From positions 1 to 50,489 of the IMG/VR virus record IMGVR_UViG_3300019360_000283: a stretch of DNA of 50,489 nt; one strand, 5' to 3'. This DNA comes from a virus. The first letter of the stretch is position 1. The number at the start of each line of letters is the position of its first letter. The notes under the pieces are model-generated. The model was not told the DNA's origin. It did not search any database and worked only from the letters and a program-made list of their open reading frames with translations. This document shows positions 37,600 to 50,489 of the stretch, one piece after another. The translations under genes were made by a program, and so were the position numbers.

Positions 37600-39098
37600 T
37601 TCTTCTTCCTCGCCTTCTTCTCCGGCGCCGCGGCGCGCTTAGCTCTCTTCGCCGGCGCGTCCTCCGACTTCGGTTGTTCGACAACGGGAGCGTGCTCGTC
37701 GAGGATCTTCTGCACGTCGACGCCAAAGTCCTTCCCGAGTTCAGGGAAGTCATCCTGCGCAACCCACTCGGCCACCTGACCGATCAGGTGATAGGCGCCG
37801 GCGCGCACCAAATCTTCGAGCGACTTGAGCTTCGGGATCTTGTTCTCCCAGACATGGCGCGCCACCAGCTGGGCCGCTGGACCGCCAGGCTTCGCGTCCA
37901 TCTCGGAGATGCGTTCCTGGAAAGCCTGGAGGATCGCGGGGCGGGCCTTCTTGAAGCGCTCGCGCACGGCCTCCTCCCGCCTGCGCTCCTCTTCGTAGGC
38001 CGCCTGTCGTTTGGCTTGGCTCTGCGACGACGTCCGAGAGGCGGGTTTCGGTTTCTTCCGCTCCGGCCAGTGGATCCCGCACGACCTGTTCACGCAGACG
38101 CGCAGCGTCTCTCCGCGTGCCGGTCCCGCGCCGAACACGCCCAGCACGCTCTTCTCGCAGGTCTGAGATTTACGCCGCTTCGTGCCGTATCTGTCCTGCT
38201 CGCTCTCGAGGCCCTCCCCCGTGGCGTTCTTCCAGGAGACGACGCTGTAGATGCGCTGGCCACCCGGCTCCCGCACTTCCGGTGAGGTCGCATGCTGATG
38301 GGTGATGAGGACGATCTTCTGCTTCGCCTCAGTCGCCTCTTCGATGGCGCGCGCGGTCTCCGGAAAGAGAATCTGCTCGACCTGGTCCGTCTTGAACCGG
38401 ACGTTCTTGTCGATCCAGCCTTCGAGCTCGCGCACGCTCTTGGCCTTCCGGTATCCGAACTTCGGCGTCTTGGCGTCCGGCCGGAACAGCACATCGTCGT
38501 GCTGCCAGAGGGGCGAGGTCCTCGAATCGGGCTCGCCGAGCACCATCTTCTGTTGGGCGGGTGCGAGCCGCGAGATCAGGATCGCGTGGCCCGGCGTGAT
38601 CTCGCCAGCCAGAAATACCGTCTGCCCCTCCGGGATCAGCTCCAGCAGCTTGATCCGGTCGTAGACGTATTTCTCGGACTTCCCCACCTGATGCGCGATG
38701 CGCGCGGCGTCCCGGCCGAAGCCCATGAGCGCCTTGTAGCCGGCGGCCTCCTCGAGGGGATGGAGATCCCGGCGCTGCAGGTTCTCGATGACCTGGATCT
38801 CGATGACCGCCTCCTCGTCGAGATCCCGGATCGTGGCGGGGATGGAATCGAGGCCGGCCGCCTTCGCCGCGCGGAAGCGGCACTCGCCCGCGACGACCTC
38901 GTATCCCTCTCCGGCGCGGCGGAGCAGGAGCGGCTGCAGGACTCCCTTGCGCGCGATCGATTCGCTCAGTTCCTCGAGGTAGGACTTGTCGAAGATCTTC
39001 CGGGGATTCGTCCGCGACGGGACGATCTGGTCGATCGGGATCATGACCGCGGCGCTCGCCGGCGCCTCGGTGTGTTCAGCGGTTGCGGCCTTGTTCAT
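37596..39098 (-). CDS. ParB/RepB-type partition-like protein
   Basis: The protein has 500 residues from the ATG at 39098 (overlap ATGA, GGGAGG upstream). The ParB N-terminal domain carries PIDQIVPSRTNPRKIFDKSY, VLQPLLLRRAGEGYEVVAGE and the CTPase/arginine region CRFRAAKAAG. The HTH follows (ENLQRRDLHPLEEAAGYKAL; KSEKYVYDRIKLLELIPEGQ). A long C-terminal extension has a Lys/Arg-rich helical tail. No ParA gene is next to it. In phages such proteins may take part in partition, gene control or recombination with the SbcCD pair; that is inference. Confidence 0.85.
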   Translation of the reverse strand: MNKAATAEHTEAPASAAVMIPIDQIVPSRTNPRKIFDKSYLEELSESIARKGVLQPLLLRRAGEGYEVVAGECRFRAAKAAGLDSIPATIRDLDEEAVIEIQVIENLQRRDLHPLEEAAGYKALMGFGRDAARIAHQVGKSEKYVYDRIKLLELIPEGQTVFLAGEITPGHAILISRLAPAQQKMVLGEPDSRTSPLWQHDDVLFRPDAKTPKFGYRKAKSVRELEGWIDKNVRFKTDQVEQILFPETARAIEEATEAKQKIVLITHQHATSPEVREPGGQRIYSVVSWKNATGEGLESEQDRYGTKRRKSQTCEKSVLGVFGAGPARGETLRVCVNRSCGIHWPERKKPKPASRTSSQSQAKRQAAYEEERRREEAVRERFKKARPAILQAFQERISEMDAKPGGPAAQLVARHVWENKIPKLKSLEDLVRAGAYHLIGQVAEWVAQDDFPELGKDFGVDVQKILDEHAPVVEQPKSEDAPAKRAKRAAAPEKKARKKK

Positions 39099-41572
39099 GC
39101 AGCCTCCCTGAGAGCGCCGATCCGGACTGCGCCGTCGGCGACGTGGACCTGGACGTCCGAGGCCTCGTAGACCTCGGGCACGTGCGCGACAAAGAGCACC
39201 TGGTGGAACCCGCCGAGCTGCATCGCGCGGCGGAGCATCGCGACGTAGCGGCCGGCGTTCTTCGGATCGAGCGCGCCGGCGGTCTCGTCGCGGAAGAGCG
39301 TCTGCCACCGGATCCCGCTCTTTCGGGCATTGAAGATGGAGATCGCGAGCCCGATCGCCTCGCCCACGATCACCCGCTCCCCGCCGGAGAGCGCCTCGAC
39401 CGGGCGGGTCTCGCCGCGGTCGAAGACCTGGATGTCGAAGGCCTCGACGAACTCGCCGGCGGCGGAGCGCTTCTCGCGGAGGGTCTCGAAGGTGATGCTG
39501 AAGCGCGGCCCGTAGCAGGCCTCGAGCAGATCGTTCGTGATTCGGGCGACCTCGGGCCCGGCCGCATCGATCTCCAGCGCCTGGACGCCGTCCCGGCCGA
39601 GGGCTGTGGCGAGGAGCCGCCAGTCCCCCAGCTCGCGCTCGACCGCCGCGACCTTCTCCTGCATCTCCGCCCGCTGTCCTGCGCGCGCCTGGAGCGCCTG
39701 CAGGGCAGCCCGGGCCCGCTCGAGTGCCCGGTCCGCGTCGCGCGCCAGATCCTCGGCCTTCTTCGTGCTGCCCTGCGATGCTTCGAGCTTGCGCTCCGCC
39801 TCTTCGAGCGTGAGTCGCCCGATCTCTTCCTGGAACCGGTCCAGCGCCGCCGCGGCTTCCGCGTGTGCCACGGAGGCCAGGTCATGCCGCTCCTGGGCTC
39901 GGGAGATCTCGGCCGCGGCCGTCGCCAGGTCCCGCTCGAGCGCGTCTTCGACCCCCTGGAGTTCCACGAGGTCCGCCCGCACCGTCTCGGCCGCGGCCAC
40001 CAGGTCCGCATCGAGCCGGCTCTGGACCTCGATGCGCTCCTCGCCGGCGAGGCGCAGCTGCTCCTGGGCCCCGGCCGCCGCTCGCACGCGCGCCAGAGCC
40101 TCGGTGATCTCGTCCTGCCGGGTCTCGATCAGGGGCCTTCGCGTCTTCCTCTGGAGCATCGCCCCGGCCCCGGCTTGCACGTCCTGGACCGCGGCGTCCG
40201 CCTTGGCGATCGCCTGCGCGTGGCCGGCGTCCTCTTCCAGGACAGGATTGGCCAGGAGTTCCGCCAGACGCGCTTCGGCGGTCTTCGCGTCGGCCAGCAG
40301 GGGGCACGTGCCGGCGAGGTCGACCTCGACCGGGGCGGGAGCGGCTTCGGGGCACCATGAAGGCGCGGCCGTGCAGGGCGCCTGCACCAGGAGTTCGACC
40401 TGCTCCTGGAGCCGGGACACCTCATTGTTGCGCGCCCGGCGCGCGATCGTGACTGCCGCGTCGGCCGACGCTTTGTTGAACAGGGCCTGGGCCTGCACGT
40501 CGAGGAGTGCCTCGTATTTGACATCTGCCGCATCGAGTCGTCTCTTCTCCGCGGCGAGATCCTTCCGCTCCTGCTCGAGCGTTGCGGCATCCGGGACGTT
40601 CTCCAGGGATGCGCGCAGGCCCTCCTCGCGGCGGGTGATCGCGGCGAGCGCACCATTGGCCCGCTCCCGGGCGATCGGTTCCAGCCGTTCGGAGTGGCGC
40701 ACCTGAATCACCGTCCGCCGGGCGTCTGCCTGGCCCCGGATCCATGGCGGCCGGAACTCGGCCCGCTCCAGGGCAAGTCCCGCCTCCTTGTTTTGCCCGG
40801 CGGATGCAGCCTTGGCCTGCTGGAGCGCCGCGAGACGGGCGCCGGCGCCGCGGAGCCTCTCGACGATCGCGACCCACTCCCGCTCACTCGCACGCGCGTC
40901 CTCGAGCATCGCCTGGCGCGTGCCGGTCGACTCCGTCGCGCTCATGACGGCCTGTTCCGCCAGCGGGAGATCCTCCAGCTCGGCGTCCAGGTCGGCGACG
41001 TGCTGGCGGGCCCGGTCGAGCTTCCTGGCCTCATCCGCGGCGGCCGCGGCCGCGTGCGTCGCCAGAACCTCGAGCATCGCGAGTCCCAGGAGTTCGATGA
41101 AGAGGCCTTTCCGGTCGGTCTTCTTCAAGCCGAGGAAGTTGCCCTGCTTGCCCTGAGCGGCGAAGACGGAGGCCAGCAGGAGATCGCGCGAGCCGAAGCG
41201 CCGCAGGATCTCCGCGTCGAACTCGGCCGCGCGGCCGGTCGTCAGGGAACGGCCGTCTTCGAAGACGTAGCTCTCGCAGGTGCGGCGGTCGGCGTCGATC
41301 TGGACGCGCACCTTGAGCTCGCGGCCGCCGTCGTCGAAGGTGCACTCGATGAAGGCGTCCTTCCCGGCGGCGTATTCGTAGAGCGAGGCGGGCCGGGAGG
41401 CGAACTGCTTGTGCAGCGCCGCCGGCACCGCCTCGAGGAGCGTCGTCTTCCCTGCACCGTTCGGCCCCACCAGGGCGATCAAGCCGGGCCCGAGGGCGTC
41501 GAGGTCGATGCGCACGGGCTCCGCGCCGGCGAATCGGGTCAGGCCGCGAAGGGCGATCTCACGCAGCCTCAT
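39095..41572 (-). CDS. sbcC: SbcC/Rad50-like SMC-type ATPase
   Basis: The protein has 825 residues. Walker A is GPNGAGKTT near residues 36-44, and the C-terminal signature is ALSGGERVIVGEAIGLA with a Walker B/D-loop further on. The middle is a long charged coiled coil. The usual CxxC zinc hook is replaced by a three-cysteine arrangement (APCTAAPSWC and TCPLLADAK, about residues 398-423). It would pair with the SbcD-like nuclease whose gene overlaps by 14 bases, to process DNA ends and hairpins. Confidence 0.88.
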   Translation of the reverse strand: MRLREIALRGLTRFAGAEPVRIDLDALGPGLIALVGPNGAGKTTLLEAVPAALHKQFASRPASLYEYAAGKDAFIECTFDDGGRELKVRVQIDADRRTCESYVFEDGRSLTTGRAAEFDAEILRRFGSRDLLLASVFAAQGKQGNFLGLKKTDRKGLFIELLGLAMLEVLATHAAAAAADEARKLDRARQHVADLDAELEDLPLAEQAVMSATESTGTRQAMLEDARASEREWVAIVERLRGAGARLAALQQAKAASAGQNKEAGLALERAEFRPPWIRGQADARRTVIQVRHSERLEPIARERANGALAAITRREEGLRASLENVPDAATLEQERKDLAAEKRRLDAADVKYEALLDVQAQALFNKASADAAVTIARRARNNEVSRLQEQVELLVQAPCTAAPSWCPEAAPAPVEVDLAGTCPLLADAKTAEARLAELLANPVLEEDAGHAQAIAKADAAVQDVQAGAGAMLQRKTRRPLIETRQDEITEALARVRAAAGAQEQLRLAGEERIEVQSRLDADLVAAAETVRADLVELQGVEDALERDLATAAAEISRAQERHDLASVAHAEAAAALDRFQEEIGRLTLEEAERKLEASQGSTKKAEDLARDADRALERARAALQALQARAGQRAEMQEKVAAVERELGDWRLLATALGRDGVQALEIDAAGPEVARITNDLLEACYGPRFSITFETLREKRSAAGEFVEAFDIQVFDRGETRPVEALSGGERVIVGEAIGLAISIFNARKSGIRWQTLFRDETAGALDPKNAGRYVAMLRRAMQLGGFHQVLFVAHVPEVYEASDVQVHVADGAVRIGALREAA

Positions 41573-42773
41573 GGATCACCTCCGGAGCCGGGGTTTCGAG
41601 GGCCGCGAGCTTCGCGCGCACCCGCTCGCGGGTCTCCGGCGGGACGTCGATGCCCTTCGCCTGCCAGTAGGCCTCGACCTTGGCGAAGAGCGTCTGCGCC
41701 GTCGTGATCGCTGCGGAGCGGATCCGCTCCTCGTGAACGATCACCGCCTCGATCTGAACCTCGTCCGCTCCCCCGCCCTCCAGATAGAAGCGGCGGAGAT
41801 ACGTCTCGTCCACCTCGTGCAGGTGCTCGGCCCGGACTCGGTAGCGGAAGCGGACGAGATCCCCCTTGCGGATCGCGCCCTCCCCGAGCGGGATGTTCCA
41901 GCCACCGTCCCAGGTGTTCTCCAGCAGGACGATGCGCCGAGCGTAGGTGAGCGGGACGAATCGGTTCTCGACGTCGTAGCGCCCCGTCTTCGGATCGCCC
42001 TCGATCGTGACGAGCCGGAAGCCCTTCTCCTCGGGCTCCCCGAAATTGCAGCGCCGCGGGGATCCGGAATACGCGACGCGGCCATCGAGCCACTCCTGCG
42101 CCTTGTGGACGTGGCCGAGCGCCGCGTAGGCGCACCCGACCTCGGCGATGTCGTGGGGGCTCAGCTCGACGGTCGTCCCGATCGGAATGAACCCGGTGCC
42201 GGTCTCGCTGCCGGCGACGAGGACGTGCCCGACCAGCAGAGGCATGTTGCCGAGCGAGGAGATCCGCTGCGCCTCGATCGCGAGCAGGGTCAGGAGGCGC
42301 CTGGCCGCGGCGATCGTCGCGTTGCGGGTCTGCTCCGCATCGAATTCCGCCGAGAGCGTCGAGACGAGGTGCGCCTTGTCGAACCAGGGCAGGGCGAGCA
42401 CCCCGAACGGGCGCATGCGGGTCTCGAGCATCATCGTGAGTGCGGACCCGGGCGCCGACGTCGGCCGGTCGAAGATCGCGACCGGGAACTGCGACTGGAT
42501 CCGGTTGAAGATCTCCAGGTCGCCGGCGGCGTCGTGGTTGCCTTTCGCGCCGATCACGGGCGCCACGTTCCCGGCCGCCTGCAGGAATCGCGCGAGAGCG
42601 GTGCGCTCCGCCGGGGTGCTCTTCCGGTGGAAGAAGTCGCCCGCGTGGAGGAACACGTCCACGCCGGCGTCGTCGGCCTTCGCGACGATCTCCCAGTGCA
42701 GCTGCGCCGTTTCGTCGAGGCGGTCCTGTTCGTCGAAGTGCGAATCTGAGGTATGGCAGATGACGAGTTTCAC
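41559..42773 (-). CDS. sbcD: SbcD/Mre11-like exonuclease
   Basis: The protein has 404 residues from a GTG at 42773 (GTGA overlap). The metallophosphoesterase motifs are all visible: TSDSHFDE, FLHAGDFFHRK, IGAKGNHDA, LVGHVLVAG and LGHVHKAQE. It cuts double-stranded ends and hairpins with the SbcC-like ATPase. Residues about 313-328 carry a sequence almost shared with the end of the helicase two genes upstream, including an identical LHEVDETYLRR coded by a 34-base exact repeat. This is described separately. Confidence 0.88.
   Translation of the reverse strand: MKLVICHTSDSHFDEQDRLDETAQLHWEIVAKADDAGVDVFLHAGDFFHRKSTPAERTALARFLQAAGNVAPVIGAKGNHDAAGDLEIFNRIQSQFPVAIFDRPTSAPGSALTMMLETRMRPFGVLALPWFDKAHLVSTLSAEFDAEQTRNATIAAARRLLTLLAIEAQRISSLGNMPLLVGHVLVAGSETGTGFIPIGTTVELSPHDIAEVGCAYAALGHVHKAQEWLDGRVAYSGSPRRCNFGEPEEKGFRLVTIEGDPKTGRYDVENRFVPLTYARRIVLLENTWDGGWNIPLGEGAIRKGDLVRFRYRVRAEHLHEVDETYLRRFYLEGGGADEVQIEAVIVHEERIRSAAITTAQTLFAKVEAYWQAKGIDVPPETRERVRAKLAALETPAPEVIHEAA
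41790..41823. repeat. 34-base direct repeat, copy 1 (inside SbcD-like gene)
   Basis: This is identical to 44478-44511, in the same orientation and the same reading frame of two otherwise unrelated genes. It codes for LHEVDETYLRR at residues 318-328. Similarity continues a further 13-15 bases upstream on the minus strand with three substitutions. Confidence 0.85.
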
Positions 42774-43891
42774 CGGCCACCTCCCGCGAGCTGCTTGCGG
42801 CGGTCCTCAGCCATCTTGGGCGTGAAGTCCGGATGGCTCTTGATCTCCAGCGTCTTGAGATCCTTGTGGGCGCCGTAGACGAAATCGCGCCCCGGGTAGC
42901 AGGGCCGGCAGCGCACGGATCCGCCGAGCCTCTCCATGCACATCGCGGCATCGGCGGCCTTCACCGGCACCTGGTGTCCGCACGGGCATCCGCAGACGGC
43001 TTGCGGGGGTCCGCCTTGCGGCTGCGGGGGCGGGAGGTCGTCGTACACCGGGTCCGCCTCGCCCGACACCGGCGCAGACGTTGTCGCTGCCCCGGACTCG
43101 GGTTCGTCGTCCGCGTCCAGCGGCGCGGCGGAGCTCCGGGTCACGACCTCCGCCTCGATCACCTTCCCCGCTCCCGGGCGCGAGCCGTAGAGGACGTCCT
43201 CGAGCCCGAGGGCCTTCGCCGCGACCATCCTCTTGATCTCGGGATCGTTCATGTCCGGCGCGGGCACCAGGACCGGGATGACGAACGGCTTCTCGAGCAG
43301 CTCCTCGGAGGTGTATTTCTGCTGCAGGGAGAACAACTGGCGGATGCAACGGAGGAGGGCCTTCGTCTCGGTCACTTCCTCGATGCGCTCCTGGGCCATC
43401 GCGATCCGCTCGACGCTCCAACCGCTGGTCCGCTCCGCGCGGAGGTCGGTCGTCTTCCCTTCCCGGATCCGGATGAGCTTGCCGTCGAGCTGCTGGACCT
43501 CCACGGTCACGTAGAGCGTGCACACCCGCGGATCCTTCCGGTCATCGCCGCGCGCGATGTCGATCACCGATACACCGCCGGCCGTAAGGAGGCGCGAGAG
43601 TCCCTGCTTGTTCAGCGCGCGCTCGTTCGGGGCACAGAACTTGCTGTCGAAGTAGCAGTCGCGGCCGCGCTCCGAGCGCGGATTCTTCAGGTCCTTCGTG
43701 ACGGTGGGATCGATGAAGACCCCCCGAAGCGACACGTGGTGCATCGGCGGGAGGTAATCCACGCCGATGACCGGCGTCAGGAGGATGGCCCGGTCCTGGA
43801 TCGCGACGAGGGTTTTCCGCAGCTCCTCGATCGAGGCCAGTGGGCGTGGGGGCAGGAGCGCGAGAGCGCTCGATTGAGTCGCGGTTGTCAT
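42770..43891 (-). CDS. Conserved phage recombination-region protein, unknown function
   Basis: The protein has 373 residues from the ATG at 43891. Strongly patterned blocks (VIGVDYLPPMHHVSLRGVFI; YFDSKFCAPNERALNKQGLS; TKALLRCIRQLFSLQQKYTS) look like a conserved core, followed by an acidic linker and a C-terminal zinc ribbon (CGCPCGH; MCMERLGG; CRPC). It lies directly upstream of the SbcD/SbcC pair, a frequent place for single-strand annealing or recombination mediator proteins, and the fold could be such a factor. I cannot assign a family from sequence alone. Confidence 0.6.
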   Translation of the reverse strand: MTTATQSSALALLPPRPLASIEELRKTLVAIQDRAILLTPVIGVDYLPPMHHVSLRGVFIDPTVTKDLKNPRSERGRDCYFDSKFCAPNERALNKQGLSRLLTAGGVSVIDIARGDDRKDPRVCTLYVTVEVQQLDGKLIRIREGKTTDLRAERTSGWSVERIAMAQERIEEVTETKALLRCIRQLFSLQQKYTSEELLEKPFVIPVLVPAPDMNDPEIKRMVAAKALGLEDVLYGSRPGAGKVIEAEVVTRSSAAPLDADDEPESGAATTSAPVSGEADPVYDDLPPPQPQGGPPQAVCGCPCGHQVPVKAADAAMCMERLGGSVRCRPCYPGRDFVYGAHKDLKTLEIKSHPDFTPKMAEDRRKQLAGGGR

Positions 43892-43926
43892 CGGGTCTCT
43901 CCTGCGCTAGGCTTGGTGCTGTTCAC
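43888..43926 (-). CDS. Possible 12-residue leader peptide
   Basis: A GTG at 43926 with GGAGA at good spacing opens 12 codons (VNSTKPSAGETR). It ends at a TGA overlapping the ATG of the next gene as ATGA, just as most genes here overlap. It may be a translational-coupling leader. It is short enough to be chance. Confidence 0.3.
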   Translation of the reverse strand: MNSTKPSAGETR

Positions 43927-43948
43927 GGTTGTCTCCTTGCAGTGATGG

Positions 43949-43972
43949 ACGCCCCGGTCGCCGCCGGGGCGT
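43949..43972. terminator. Perfect nine-base-pair hairpin upstream of recombination genes
   Basis: ACGCCCCGG and CCGGGGCGT pair around a six-base loop in the 94-base gap between 43892 and 43985. Neither strand has a T run next to it. It could be an attenuator or processing site between the small HTH-like gene and the recombination genes. Confidence 0.55.
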
Positions 43973-43985
43973 TCGTGTGTTCGGG

Positions 43986-44441
43986 TCATTTCTTTCTCGC
44001 CCGCCAGCCGGTTGGGCCGAAATCGGCCAGCCCATTGATCTGCATGTGCTTGAGTACGTTCGACACAACCTGTTCGATCTGGCCGAAGGAGAACGAAACA
44101 CCACGCGCCTTGACCTGTGTGACGATCTCCGCCCGGGTGAGGGGGCTTCCGTCCGTGCCGGCGAAGATGCGATCGATGTGCACGCGCACCTCGCCCATCT
44201 TCGAGTTCTTCGCCCAGGTGACCTGGAATGGCTGCGAGCCAGGCTTCCGCGCGGGTTCCGGCGGGCTGTTCGGGGCCGCGGGCGCCGAGGGCGCGGGTGC
44301 CGGTGGCTCTGAGACCTGCGCGGACGCTTCCGGGGCGGGGATTCCCTCGTAGATCGACAGGACCGTCAGGAGCGCGGCGATCTCCTCCTCGCGTTTGACG
44401 ATCTGCGCATGCAGAGCCGCTACCAGATCGGCGGTCGTCAT
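43986..44441 (-). CDS. Hypothetical protein with C-terminal winged-helix-like domain
   Basis: The protein has 151 residues. A coiled-coil N-terminus (DLVAALHAQIVKREEEIAAL) is followed by an Ala/Pro-rich linker (about residues 33-70) and a C-terminal block (IDRIFAGTDGSPLTRAEIVT and QIEQVVSNVLKHMQINGLAD) that looks like a winged-helix DNA-binding fold. It lies between the helicase and recombination genes, which suggests a regulatory or accessory role; function not determined. Confidence 0.6.
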   Translation of the reverse strand: MTTADLVAALHAQIVKREEEIAALLTVLSIYEGIPAPEASAQVSEPPAPAPSAPAAPNSPPEPARKPGSQPFQVTWAKNSKMGEVRVHIDRIFAGTDGSPLTRAEIVTQVKARGVSFSFGQIEQVVSNVLKHMQINGLADFGPTGWRARKK

Positions 44442-44444
44442 GGG

Positions 44445-46244
44445 TTACCGCCCCCCCGAATCGAAGAGGCTGCGCTGGCGGCGGAGATACGTCTCGTCCA
44501 CCTCGTGCAGGCGCTCCGTCCGGAGGCCGAACCGTTCGCGCAGCTCGGCGCGCGCCGGTTCTCCTGGCTCACCATGAAACGCGCCCCCGCACCAGCACTG
44601 GCAGCGCCGGCCGCCCGCTCCGAACAGGCCCAGCTGCAGCTTCTCGGATTCCACGTCGAGCAGGCCCTCATCCGGTCCGACCGTGGCCGCGTCGATCGTC
44701 TGATCGATCAGCCGCTCCTTCACGGTGAGGACGTCCGTGACGAAGTGCTCGAGCGCGTGATCGGCGACGAGCCGCAGGACCACGACGCCGCGGTTCTGGC
44801 CCATGCGGCAGACGCGATCAACGGCCTGGAGGTTGATGCCGGGCGTCCAGAACAGATCGACCAGCAGCACCATGTGCCCGCGGGTCAGGGTGATCGCCGT
44901 CCCGCCCGATTGCATCGTGGACGCGACACCCCGGAGCTTCCCGGCCTGGTACGCGTCGACGATCTCCGTGCGTTGCTCGGCCCGAACATCCCCGGTGATC
45001 GCGGCCCAGCCGGTCCGCCGGCCGAGCATGTCGATCGGCTCGCGGTGGCAGGAGAACACGACGAGGGGCTCGCCGGCCGCCTCCATCATCTCGACCTGCT
45101 CGAGCATCGCCGGGATCTTGGCTGTCGCGAGCGCGGCGCGGATCTTCGAGATCATGGTGAACTCGATTTGCTGGATCTGCGCGAGGTCGACCCGCTCGGT
45201 GGCGCGCGAGAGATCGATCCCGTGCGCGGCAAGTCGGGCGACGAGTTCGTCGCACTGCTTGCGCGTTTGGGCCGGGATGTCCTCGACGACGATGTCCTGG
45301 TAGGTTTTCGGGGGAATCTGCGGCCAGACGTCGCGGCGCGAGCGGCGGAGCATGACCGTCTTCAGCCTCTCCGGGACCCACGGCGCGGGATCGCCCCACA
45401 CGACCTTGCGGCCCTTCACCCGGCGATCGGGGAAGCCGTCGTTGAAGTTGGCCTCGCTCCCGAACGCCTTCTCGAAGACACCGACCGCGGTCAGGATCGA
45501 CTGCAGCTCCGGAGGCCGGTTGAGAAGCGGCGTGCCGGTCAGGGCCCACAGGCTTCCTTCCATCTGCGCGGCCGCGGTCGCCAGCGTCCGGAACTTGCGG
45601 GTGCGCTGCGCGTCCTCGTTCTTCACCGCGTGCGCTTCGTCGGCAATGACGATCGTCCCGGGGAGCGGGGTGGGAAAGAACTCCGGCAGGATGTCGTAGT
45701 TCAGGACGACGGACTCGCCGCGCATCGGCCAGCGGAAGCTGTTCCGCCCGGAGAAGACCGTCACCAGCGTCTCCGGCCGCCAGGCGCGGAAGTGCGATCG
45801 CCAGACGCCCTTGGCCGCCTGGGGACCGATGACGACCGTCGGGGCGCGCGGCGGGATCGCCATGACCGCCTGCACGGTCTTCCCCACGCCCATCTCGTCG
45901 CCGAGGACGGCGCCGCGGCGCTGCCCGAGCCACTGCGCACCGATCTCCTGAAACGGGCGCATCTGCAGCGACGGGTCCCGGACCGGGTCGGGCGTGTCGC
46001 CGTTCCCAAGATGCGCCTTCAGAGGATCGGAGAGCAGCGGGCGGAAATACGTGTTCTCGAAATACGAGAGCGCCAACCGGAGCCGCTCCATCGGGAGTGT
46101 CTGAGCGCGGCGCATCGGATCGAACGAACCACCGGCGGCGCGGACGAGCCGCCGATAGTGATCGAACGTGCGCGGGTCGAGGCGCCCGACCGGCTTGAGC
46201 TGGACGTGCGCCGTGCTGATCTCCTCGATCCGGACGGCGATCAC
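44445..46244 (-). CDS. SNF2-type DNA helicase/translocase
   Basis: The protein has 599 residues from a GTG at 46244 (GTGA overlap). Helicase motifs: GDEMGVGKT (I, 115-123), ADEAH (II, 201-205), LTGTPLLN (III, 235-242), then late motifs STMQSGGTAITLT and the SNF2-type VDRVCRMGQNRGVVV. The C-terminal tail has QLGLF (537-541), a cysteine cluster CQCWC (548-552), LHEVDETYLRR (579-589) shared exactly with the SbcD-like protein, and QRSLF (590-594). Both Q-x-x-L-F motifs resemble beta-clamp-binding peptides. It would remodel or unwind DNA at replication or recombination sites. Confidence 0.85.
   Translation of the reverse strand: MIAVRIEEISTAHVQLKPVGRLDPRTFDHYRRLVRAAGGSFDPMRRAQTLPMERLRLALSYFENTYFRPLLSDPLKAHLGNGDTPDPVRDPSLQMRPFQEIGAQWLGQRRGAVLGDEMGVGKTVQAVMAIPPRAPTVVIGPQAAKGVWRSHFRAWRPETLVTVFSGRNSFRWPMRGESVVLNYDILPEFFPTPLPGTIVIADEAHAVKNEDAQRTRKFRTLATAAAQMEGSLWALTGTPLLNRPPELQSILTAVGVFEKAFGSEANFNDGFPDRRVKGRKVVWGDPAPWVPERLKTVMLRRSRRDVWPQIPPKTYQDIVVEDIPAQTRKQCDELVARLAAHGIDLSRATERVDLAQIQQIEFTMISKIRAALATAKIPAMLEQVEMMEAAGEPLVVFSCHREPIDMLGRRTGWAAITGDVRAEQRTEIVDAYQAGKLRGVASTMQSGGTAITLTRGHMVLLVDLFWTPGINLQAVDRVCRMGQNRGVVVLRLVADHALEHFVTDVLTVKERLIDQTIDAATVGPDEGLLDVESEKLQLGLFGAGGRRCQCWCGGAFHGEPGEPARAELRERFGLRTERLHEVDETYLRRQRSLFDSGGR
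44478..44511. repeat. 34-base direct repeat, copy 2 (inside helicase gene)
   Basis: This is identical to 41790-41823 and codes for the same LHEVDETYLRR, at residues 579-589 of the helicase. Upstream on the minus strand the similarity continues (LRTER here, VRAEH in the SbcD-like protein). Confidence 0.85.
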
Positions 46245-49358: not shown

Positions 49359-50489
49359 ATGTCGGAAACGCCACGGCGGCCCTCTTACGGCCTCGGGTCC
49401 CTGCAGAGACTTCCATCCGGCTCCTGGAGGGCCCGAATCTGGATCGCGGGCCGCCGCGAGGAGAAGTCCTACGCGACGCGCTCACTGGCGGCCGCGTGGC
49501 TCAAAGAGAGGCGGCTTCTCAAGGTGCAGGTGGAGGCTGGTGTCCGAGCTCCCACCGCCGCTTGCGAATCCATCACGTTCTCTGAGCTGATCGCGCTTCT
49601 GAAGGAACACTACCTGGCGGAGCGCGGGCGATCGCTCACGGATTCGACGGTTACCGGATACCTCAAAGCCTTGACGCGGGTCGAGCACCGCTGGGGCGCG
49701 CTGATCGTGGCCCGCACCCGGCTGCGGGAAATCGACGAGTGGATACTGGAGATGCAGAAGGAGGGGCTCGCGACGGCGACGATCCGGAACGCATTGAACC
49801 AGGTCGCCGCGCTATTTCGCCTGGCCGTGCGGCGCGACCTCCTGCCCCAGCCGCCGTGCGCCGTGCCCAGACCGACGGTAATCGTCCGCTCCGTCCGCGA
49901 TCGGGTCTCCGAGGAGGATCTAGATCGGCTGCTCGAGCAGGCCGCGGCAGAGCGGGACCCGGCCGCGATGACGATCATTCTGCTCGCGGCGGATGCCGGG
50001 CTCCGAAGGAGCGAGATCGCCAGACTACGAGCCTGCGACATACACAGGCAATCTCTCCATGTCGCAGTGCTAGGACAGAGCTGGAGGACGAAGAGTGGCC
50101 GCGGCCGCGATGTGCCTATCCTGACGGAGCGCCTCCGCGCGACGCTCGCGACGTCTGCGGGCAAGGGTGAGGCGTCCGTCATCTCCCCGGGCCTCGATGC
50201 CGCCGGGGTCACTAAGCGGGTCTCCGTCGTCTGGCAGCTCGCGCTGCAGCGGCAGCCCTCCCTGCACCGCTTGCGGCACCGGTGGGCCTCGCAGCTCGCA
50301 GACTCCGGTAAGGTCACTCCGATGCAGCTCATGGCCTGGGGAGGGTGGCGGACGCTCGGAGTAGCCCAGCGCTACTTCCATCACGACGGCCGAGGCCCAG
50401 AAAAGGGACTCTCGCGGGTGCTCGAGAAGAAGGATTGGGGCATTAGCGGGGCACGCGCCCGAAACGCGCGCTCCGAGAGTTCGGTGTAA
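49359..50489 (+). CDS. int: Tyrosine-recombinase integrase
   Basis: The protein has 376 residues, starting MSETPRRPSYGLGSLQRLPS. A SAM-like core-binding domain (about residues 70-155) precedes the catalytic domain, with DAGLRRSEIARL (first Arg), LHRLRHRWASQLAD (H-x-x-R box), GGWRTLGVAQRYFHH (Trp in the place of the second His, and catalytic Tyr in RYFHH). It would join phage attP and host attB. The frame ends at the last base of the window. The att site cannot be placed because flanking host sequence is absent. Confidence 0.9.
   Translation: MSETPRRPSYGLGSLQRLPSGSWRARIWIAGRREEKSYATRSLAAAWLKERRLLKVQVEAGVRAPTAACESITFSELIALLKEHYLAERGRSLTDSTVTGYLKALTRVEHRWGALIVARTRLREIDEWILEMQKEGLATATIRNALNQVAALFRLAVRRDLLPQPPCAVPRPTVIVRSVRDRVSEEDLDRLLEQAAAERDPAAMTIILLAADAGLRRSEIARLRACDIHRQSLHVAVLGQSWRTKSGRGRDVPILTERLRATLATSAGKGEASVISPGLDAAGVTKRVSVVWQLALQRQPSLHRLRHRWASQLADSGKVTPMQLMAWGGWRTLGVAQRYFHHDGRGPEKGLSRVLEKKDWGISGARARNARSESSV

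Follow-up and report, generated by a model that had tools for sequence, protein, structure and literature searches.

A 34-nt sequence occurs twice as an exact direct repeat in the genome of this virus, in a gene for an SbcD-like nuclease and at the 3' end of a helicase gene, and encodes the same peptide, LHEVDETYLRR, in both. The copy in the sbcD-like gene is native coding sequence, and a short ectopic tract of sbcD was probably copied recently into the helicase gene, at its 3' end, and tolerated there.

The repeat and its genomic setting

The window analyzed (50,489 nt, the whole stretch of DNA) is the entire IMG/VR virus record IMGVR_UViG_3300019360_000283, a phage fragment with 67% GC, repressors and an excisionase-like gene. 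A tyrosine-integrase-like frame, read from the sequence by eye, extends at 49359–50489 (+) as far as the record's right-hand end and suggests that the phage is temperate. On the minus strand the gene order is helicase (44445–46244), a 151-aa protein, a 373-aa protein (42770–43891; phrog_13782), SbcD (41559–42773), an SbcC-like ATPase (39095–41572; phrog_77, AAA_23) and ParB. The same order of 373-aa homologue, SbcD (46% identical) and SbcC (40% identical) was found in the virus contig L047, which starts just ahead of the 373-aa homologue, so that any helicase gene further upstream falls outside it.

No function could be recognized for the 373-aa protein. Proteins of unknown function lie directly upstream of SbcD in three virus records (window 42770–43891 on the minus strand, L047:197–1762 and L048:6865–7977); the window and L047 proteins matched phrog_13782, while the L048 protein was compared against Pfam only. 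In L047, a 218-aa frame (L047:1627–2283) that by eye resembles an HNH homing endonuclease lies between the 373-aa homologue and SbcD, and is absent from that place in the window.

Positions 41790–41823 and 44478–44511 are identical over 34 nt, and 44 of 47 positions agree when the comparison is extended to 47 nt. Both copies, 2.7 kb apart, are translated from the minus strand in one and the same frame, giving residues 318–328 of the SbcD-like protein and 579–589 of the helicase, confirming what a preliminary description had reported. Allowing up to three mismatches, the record contained only these two copies, with none expected by chance, and no third copy in its entire length. In 60 windows simulated with an order-2 Markov model, exact repeats reached at most 20 nt, and a chance origin of the repeat is excluded. 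Since all codons agree (P ∼ 4e-4 if chosen independently for the same peptide), the repeat reflects copied DNA and not convergence on a peptide. Exact repeats of 33–51 nt were present in 5 of ∼60 other loci, with copies only 250–410 nt apart.

The two sides of the repeat differ. Upstream, in the sense of the genes, similarity fades gradually, from 10/13 to 18/30 nt (in-phase background P ∼ 0.001–0.002), the latter between the flank of the sbcD copy at 41824–41853 and that of the helicase copy at 44512–44541 (both minus strand). The corresponding peptides, VRFRYRVRAEH in SbcD and LRERFGLRTER in the helicase, scored 20 with BLOSUM62 over 11 residues (P ∼ 3e-4). The upstream likeness of VRAEH and LRTER described earlier is thus real in a weak sense, at the level of nucleotides (P 0.002) as well as residues. 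Downstream, the match ends abruptly (1/15). The identical codons, the abrupt 3' end and the presence of two copies only all support the earlier suggestion of a recent duplication or conversion.

The sbcD-like gene and the helicase tail

The 404-aa product of 41559–42773 (-) matched PF00149 (E 8e-11) and phrog_100, and its structural model matched E. coli SbcD and Mre11 structures in Foldseek (E ∼ 1e-16); its score against TIGR00619 was 64.5 bits, under the cut-off of 77.65. Carrying metallophosphoesterase motifs and the SbcD fold, it belongs to the SbcD/Mre11-like nucleases. Single-sequence searches with SbcD returned nothing from viral contigs, phages or genome contigs, and searches of viral contigs for SbcC and terminase gave no matches; relatives were reached through the similarity of SbcC to Leptospira phage LE1, through plasmids and with an alignment query. 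The set comprised six plasmid proteins (from Burkholderia, Cupriavidus, Paraburkholderia and Caballeronia) and eight viral proteins, which included gp75 of Leptospira phage LE1, Leptospira prophages and the 46%-identical phage SbcD.

All fourteen relatives aligned without gaps over residues 307–328, the peptide site included, and plasmid family sequences such as VRIRWQVDEEHKQSVDRDAIAALF aligned to the window sequence VRFRYRVRAEHLHEVDETYLRRF. LHEVDETYLRR ranked in the top 1% of all 11-mers of the window against the columns of the plasmid alignment, and in the top 0.1% against those of the viral alignment. The closest relative, SbcD of L047, has THLVDVGVIER at this position. An AlphaFold2 model (pLDDT ∼ 80) placed a strand at residues 306–314, helices at 315–320 and 323–333, and a strand at 338–346. 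According to this model, the peptide helps to build the folded C-terminal region; across the family the segment is conserved in position but not in exact sequence. The SbcD copy (41790–41823) is native coding sequence; it was not inserted, nor does it form an exposed linear motif within disordered sequence. The gap-free relatives, the fit to the family columns and the strand–helix–strand unit refute the earlier proposal that the peptide had been inserted into SbcD.

The helicase is a 599-aa SNF2-type protein (PF00176/PF00271, phrog_62) with a core extending to about residue 516 in its structural model. Residues 517–599 had pLDDT values mostly <50 and form a tail that is probably disordered, judging from the model. 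The frame ends at a stop 3 bases ahead of the next start codon. Among 24 helicase relatives the tails varied in length and sequence, and LHEVDETYLRR was absent from all of them. The tail alone, used as a query, found no convincing homologue among phages, and a genome-wide, alignment-based helicase search gave distant relatives only. The tail thus appears to be lineage-specific, as far as the relatives found show, and the 34 nt most likely came from sbcD into the helicase gene, making 44478–44511 the derived copy. With the nearest helicase relative (L003) only 40–45% identical, it is from SbcD alone that the direction of copying is read.

When the tail was compared with the other proteins of the window, one weak match besides SbcD was obtained, to the 373-aa protein; it was judged to be chance, with P 0.004 before correction for ∼12 comparisons. 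Residues 160–187 of that protein (43331–43414, -), ERIAMAQERIEEVTETKALLRCIRQLF, bear a weak likeness to the helicase tail around the repeat. A CxCxCG sequence, a possible zinc site, is found in the helicase tail at residues 548–553 (44586–44603, -) and in the 373-aa protein at residues 300–305.

Origin of the helicase copy

The ancestral source would be the sbcD sequence coding for the C-terminal (capping) region, from which a tract of 34 nt, perhaps up to ∼47, was probably copied, recently and without reciprocal exchange, into the 3'-terminal part of the helicase gene on the same phage genome. Template switching or a homeologous, conversion-like recombination could have been the route, probably primed by modest pre-existing similarity just upstream; the graded 5' side and the abrupt 3' stop fit a conversion-like tract or a template switch seeded upstream. 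The copy would then have persisted because it kept the reading frame of a tail that is disordered and dispensable. The chance of landing in frame is 1 in 3, hence selection is not needed to account for the preserved frame. As a counterpoint to a single copying event, the repeat has 0 differences over its 34 nt and the adjoining 30 nt upstream have 12, an uneven pattern for a duplication decaying uniformly; it requires upstream similarity that was already there or arose by chance, or else re-conversion at a later time. The genes of the phage included no recognizable annealing recombinase. Phage recombinases are able to recombine genes diverged by 22%, with joints in homologies down to 2 bp, and RecET joins homologies of 5–13 bp (PMC2327257). 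A diversity-generating retroelement was also considered and rejected, because the copies are identical and show no changes specific to adenine, and because the sequence copied from is coding as well.

The preliminary description had instead suggested that LHEVDETYLRR is a docking peptide common to both proteins; on such a reading both segments would bind one partner (clamp, SSB or SbcC), and selection would maintain their identity. The peptide is indeed in frame in two functionally linked neighboring genes, and the helicase copy lies beside QRSLF, one of two QxxLF motifs in the tail. Selection on a peptide would not preserve identical codons, however, and a shared docking role is unsupported and quite unlikely given that the SbcD copy is structural within a folded region and that the family conserves its position and not its exact sequence. 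An accessible, disordered segment is present in the helicase tail but not in SbcD. Nor does any relative reuse the peptide: HEVDETY was encoded in 0 of 11 related virus records, and each of the five matches in viral contigs fell in an unrelated protein or a short frame. The clamp-like motif noted earlier next to the helicase copy is real and adjacent, as QRSLF (residues 590–594; 44463–44477, -) directly follows the repeat, but both it and a second motif, QLGLF (residues 537–541; 44622–44636, -), fall outside the copied segment. QLGLF fits the clamp-binding consensus QLxLF (PMC4549789) and QRSLF fits it except at position 2, giving the helicase a motif of this type near its C-terminus. They are the only QxxLF sequences in the 9,943 residues of 17 window proteins, with 0.008 expected in the helicase tail (P ∼ 3e-5, calculated post hoc), and both were absent from the related helicases examined. 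It is plausible from these motifs that the tail binds a clamp, the copied segment being an accidental spacer before the last motif. That the SbcD capping segment, grafted beside a clamp motif, became a new adaptor by which the helicase competes for or recruits a partner of SbcCD is distinctly improbable; if true, a new interaction motif would have been born by DNA copying between neighboring genes of one module.

Among the readings that concern DNA, an older and longer duplication, of at least ∼64 nt of sbcD, in the tail of the helicase, of which 34 nt were later re-homogenized by gene conversion, would account for the 18/30 nt match and for upstream peptides above background (P 3e-4). We regard it as unlikely, because the upstream signal is modest, its length was picked after the fact, and one event seeded by homeologous sequence accounts for the pattern equally. 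A DNA-level site (for protein binding, recombination or an origin) kept twice regardless of coding agrees with the identity of synonymous positions and with the ParB-like and repressor genes of the phage. It is nevertheless very unlikely, as there are two copies only, both within genes and 0 intergenic, one of them already accounted for by a conserved protein, and the copies folded no better than shuffles, without a hairpin of note (z +0.45 and +1.01). An assembly or library artefact can be entertained in that the sequence is an IMG/VR virus record without reads, yet it is hardly credible: the flanks are coherent, with SbcD continuing on both sides and the helicase frame running to its stop, and a misassembly at a repeat presupposes the repeat and creates no second copy with two intact contexts.

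Comparison with known systems

Ordinary intragenomic copying into a permissive tail is the most likely explanation of the repeat. It probably represents a quirk of genome rearrangement, not a docking signal common to the two proteins. The repeat offers a small, clean example of a phage protein tail gaining coding sequence from an unrelated neighboring gene. It also advises caution: where one copy is structural and both use the same codons, a peptide found in two components of a machine is not necessarily a binding motif.

The closest parallels lie in the homeologous and illegitimate tracts made by lambda Red in temperate phages (PMC2327257), which likewise involve small patches, diverged sequences and very short joints, although here two non-homologous genes of one genome took part. 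Rickettsia palindromic elements, which are palindromic, ∼150 bp long, present in many copies and inserted in frame in unrelated genes (PMC10969869), resemble the repeat in that one piece of peptide-coding DNA lies in frame in proteins unrelated to each other. Unlike them, the repeat is 34 nt long and non-palindromic, folding no better than shuffled sequences, and it has two copies instead of many dispersed ones; one of these is native, SbcD being free of any insertion relative to its homologues. With respect to Mre11/SbcD, the SbcD copy belongs to the folded C-terminal region of a protein with such a capping region, and the sole oddity is the second occurrence of part of its DNA, in a helicase gene.
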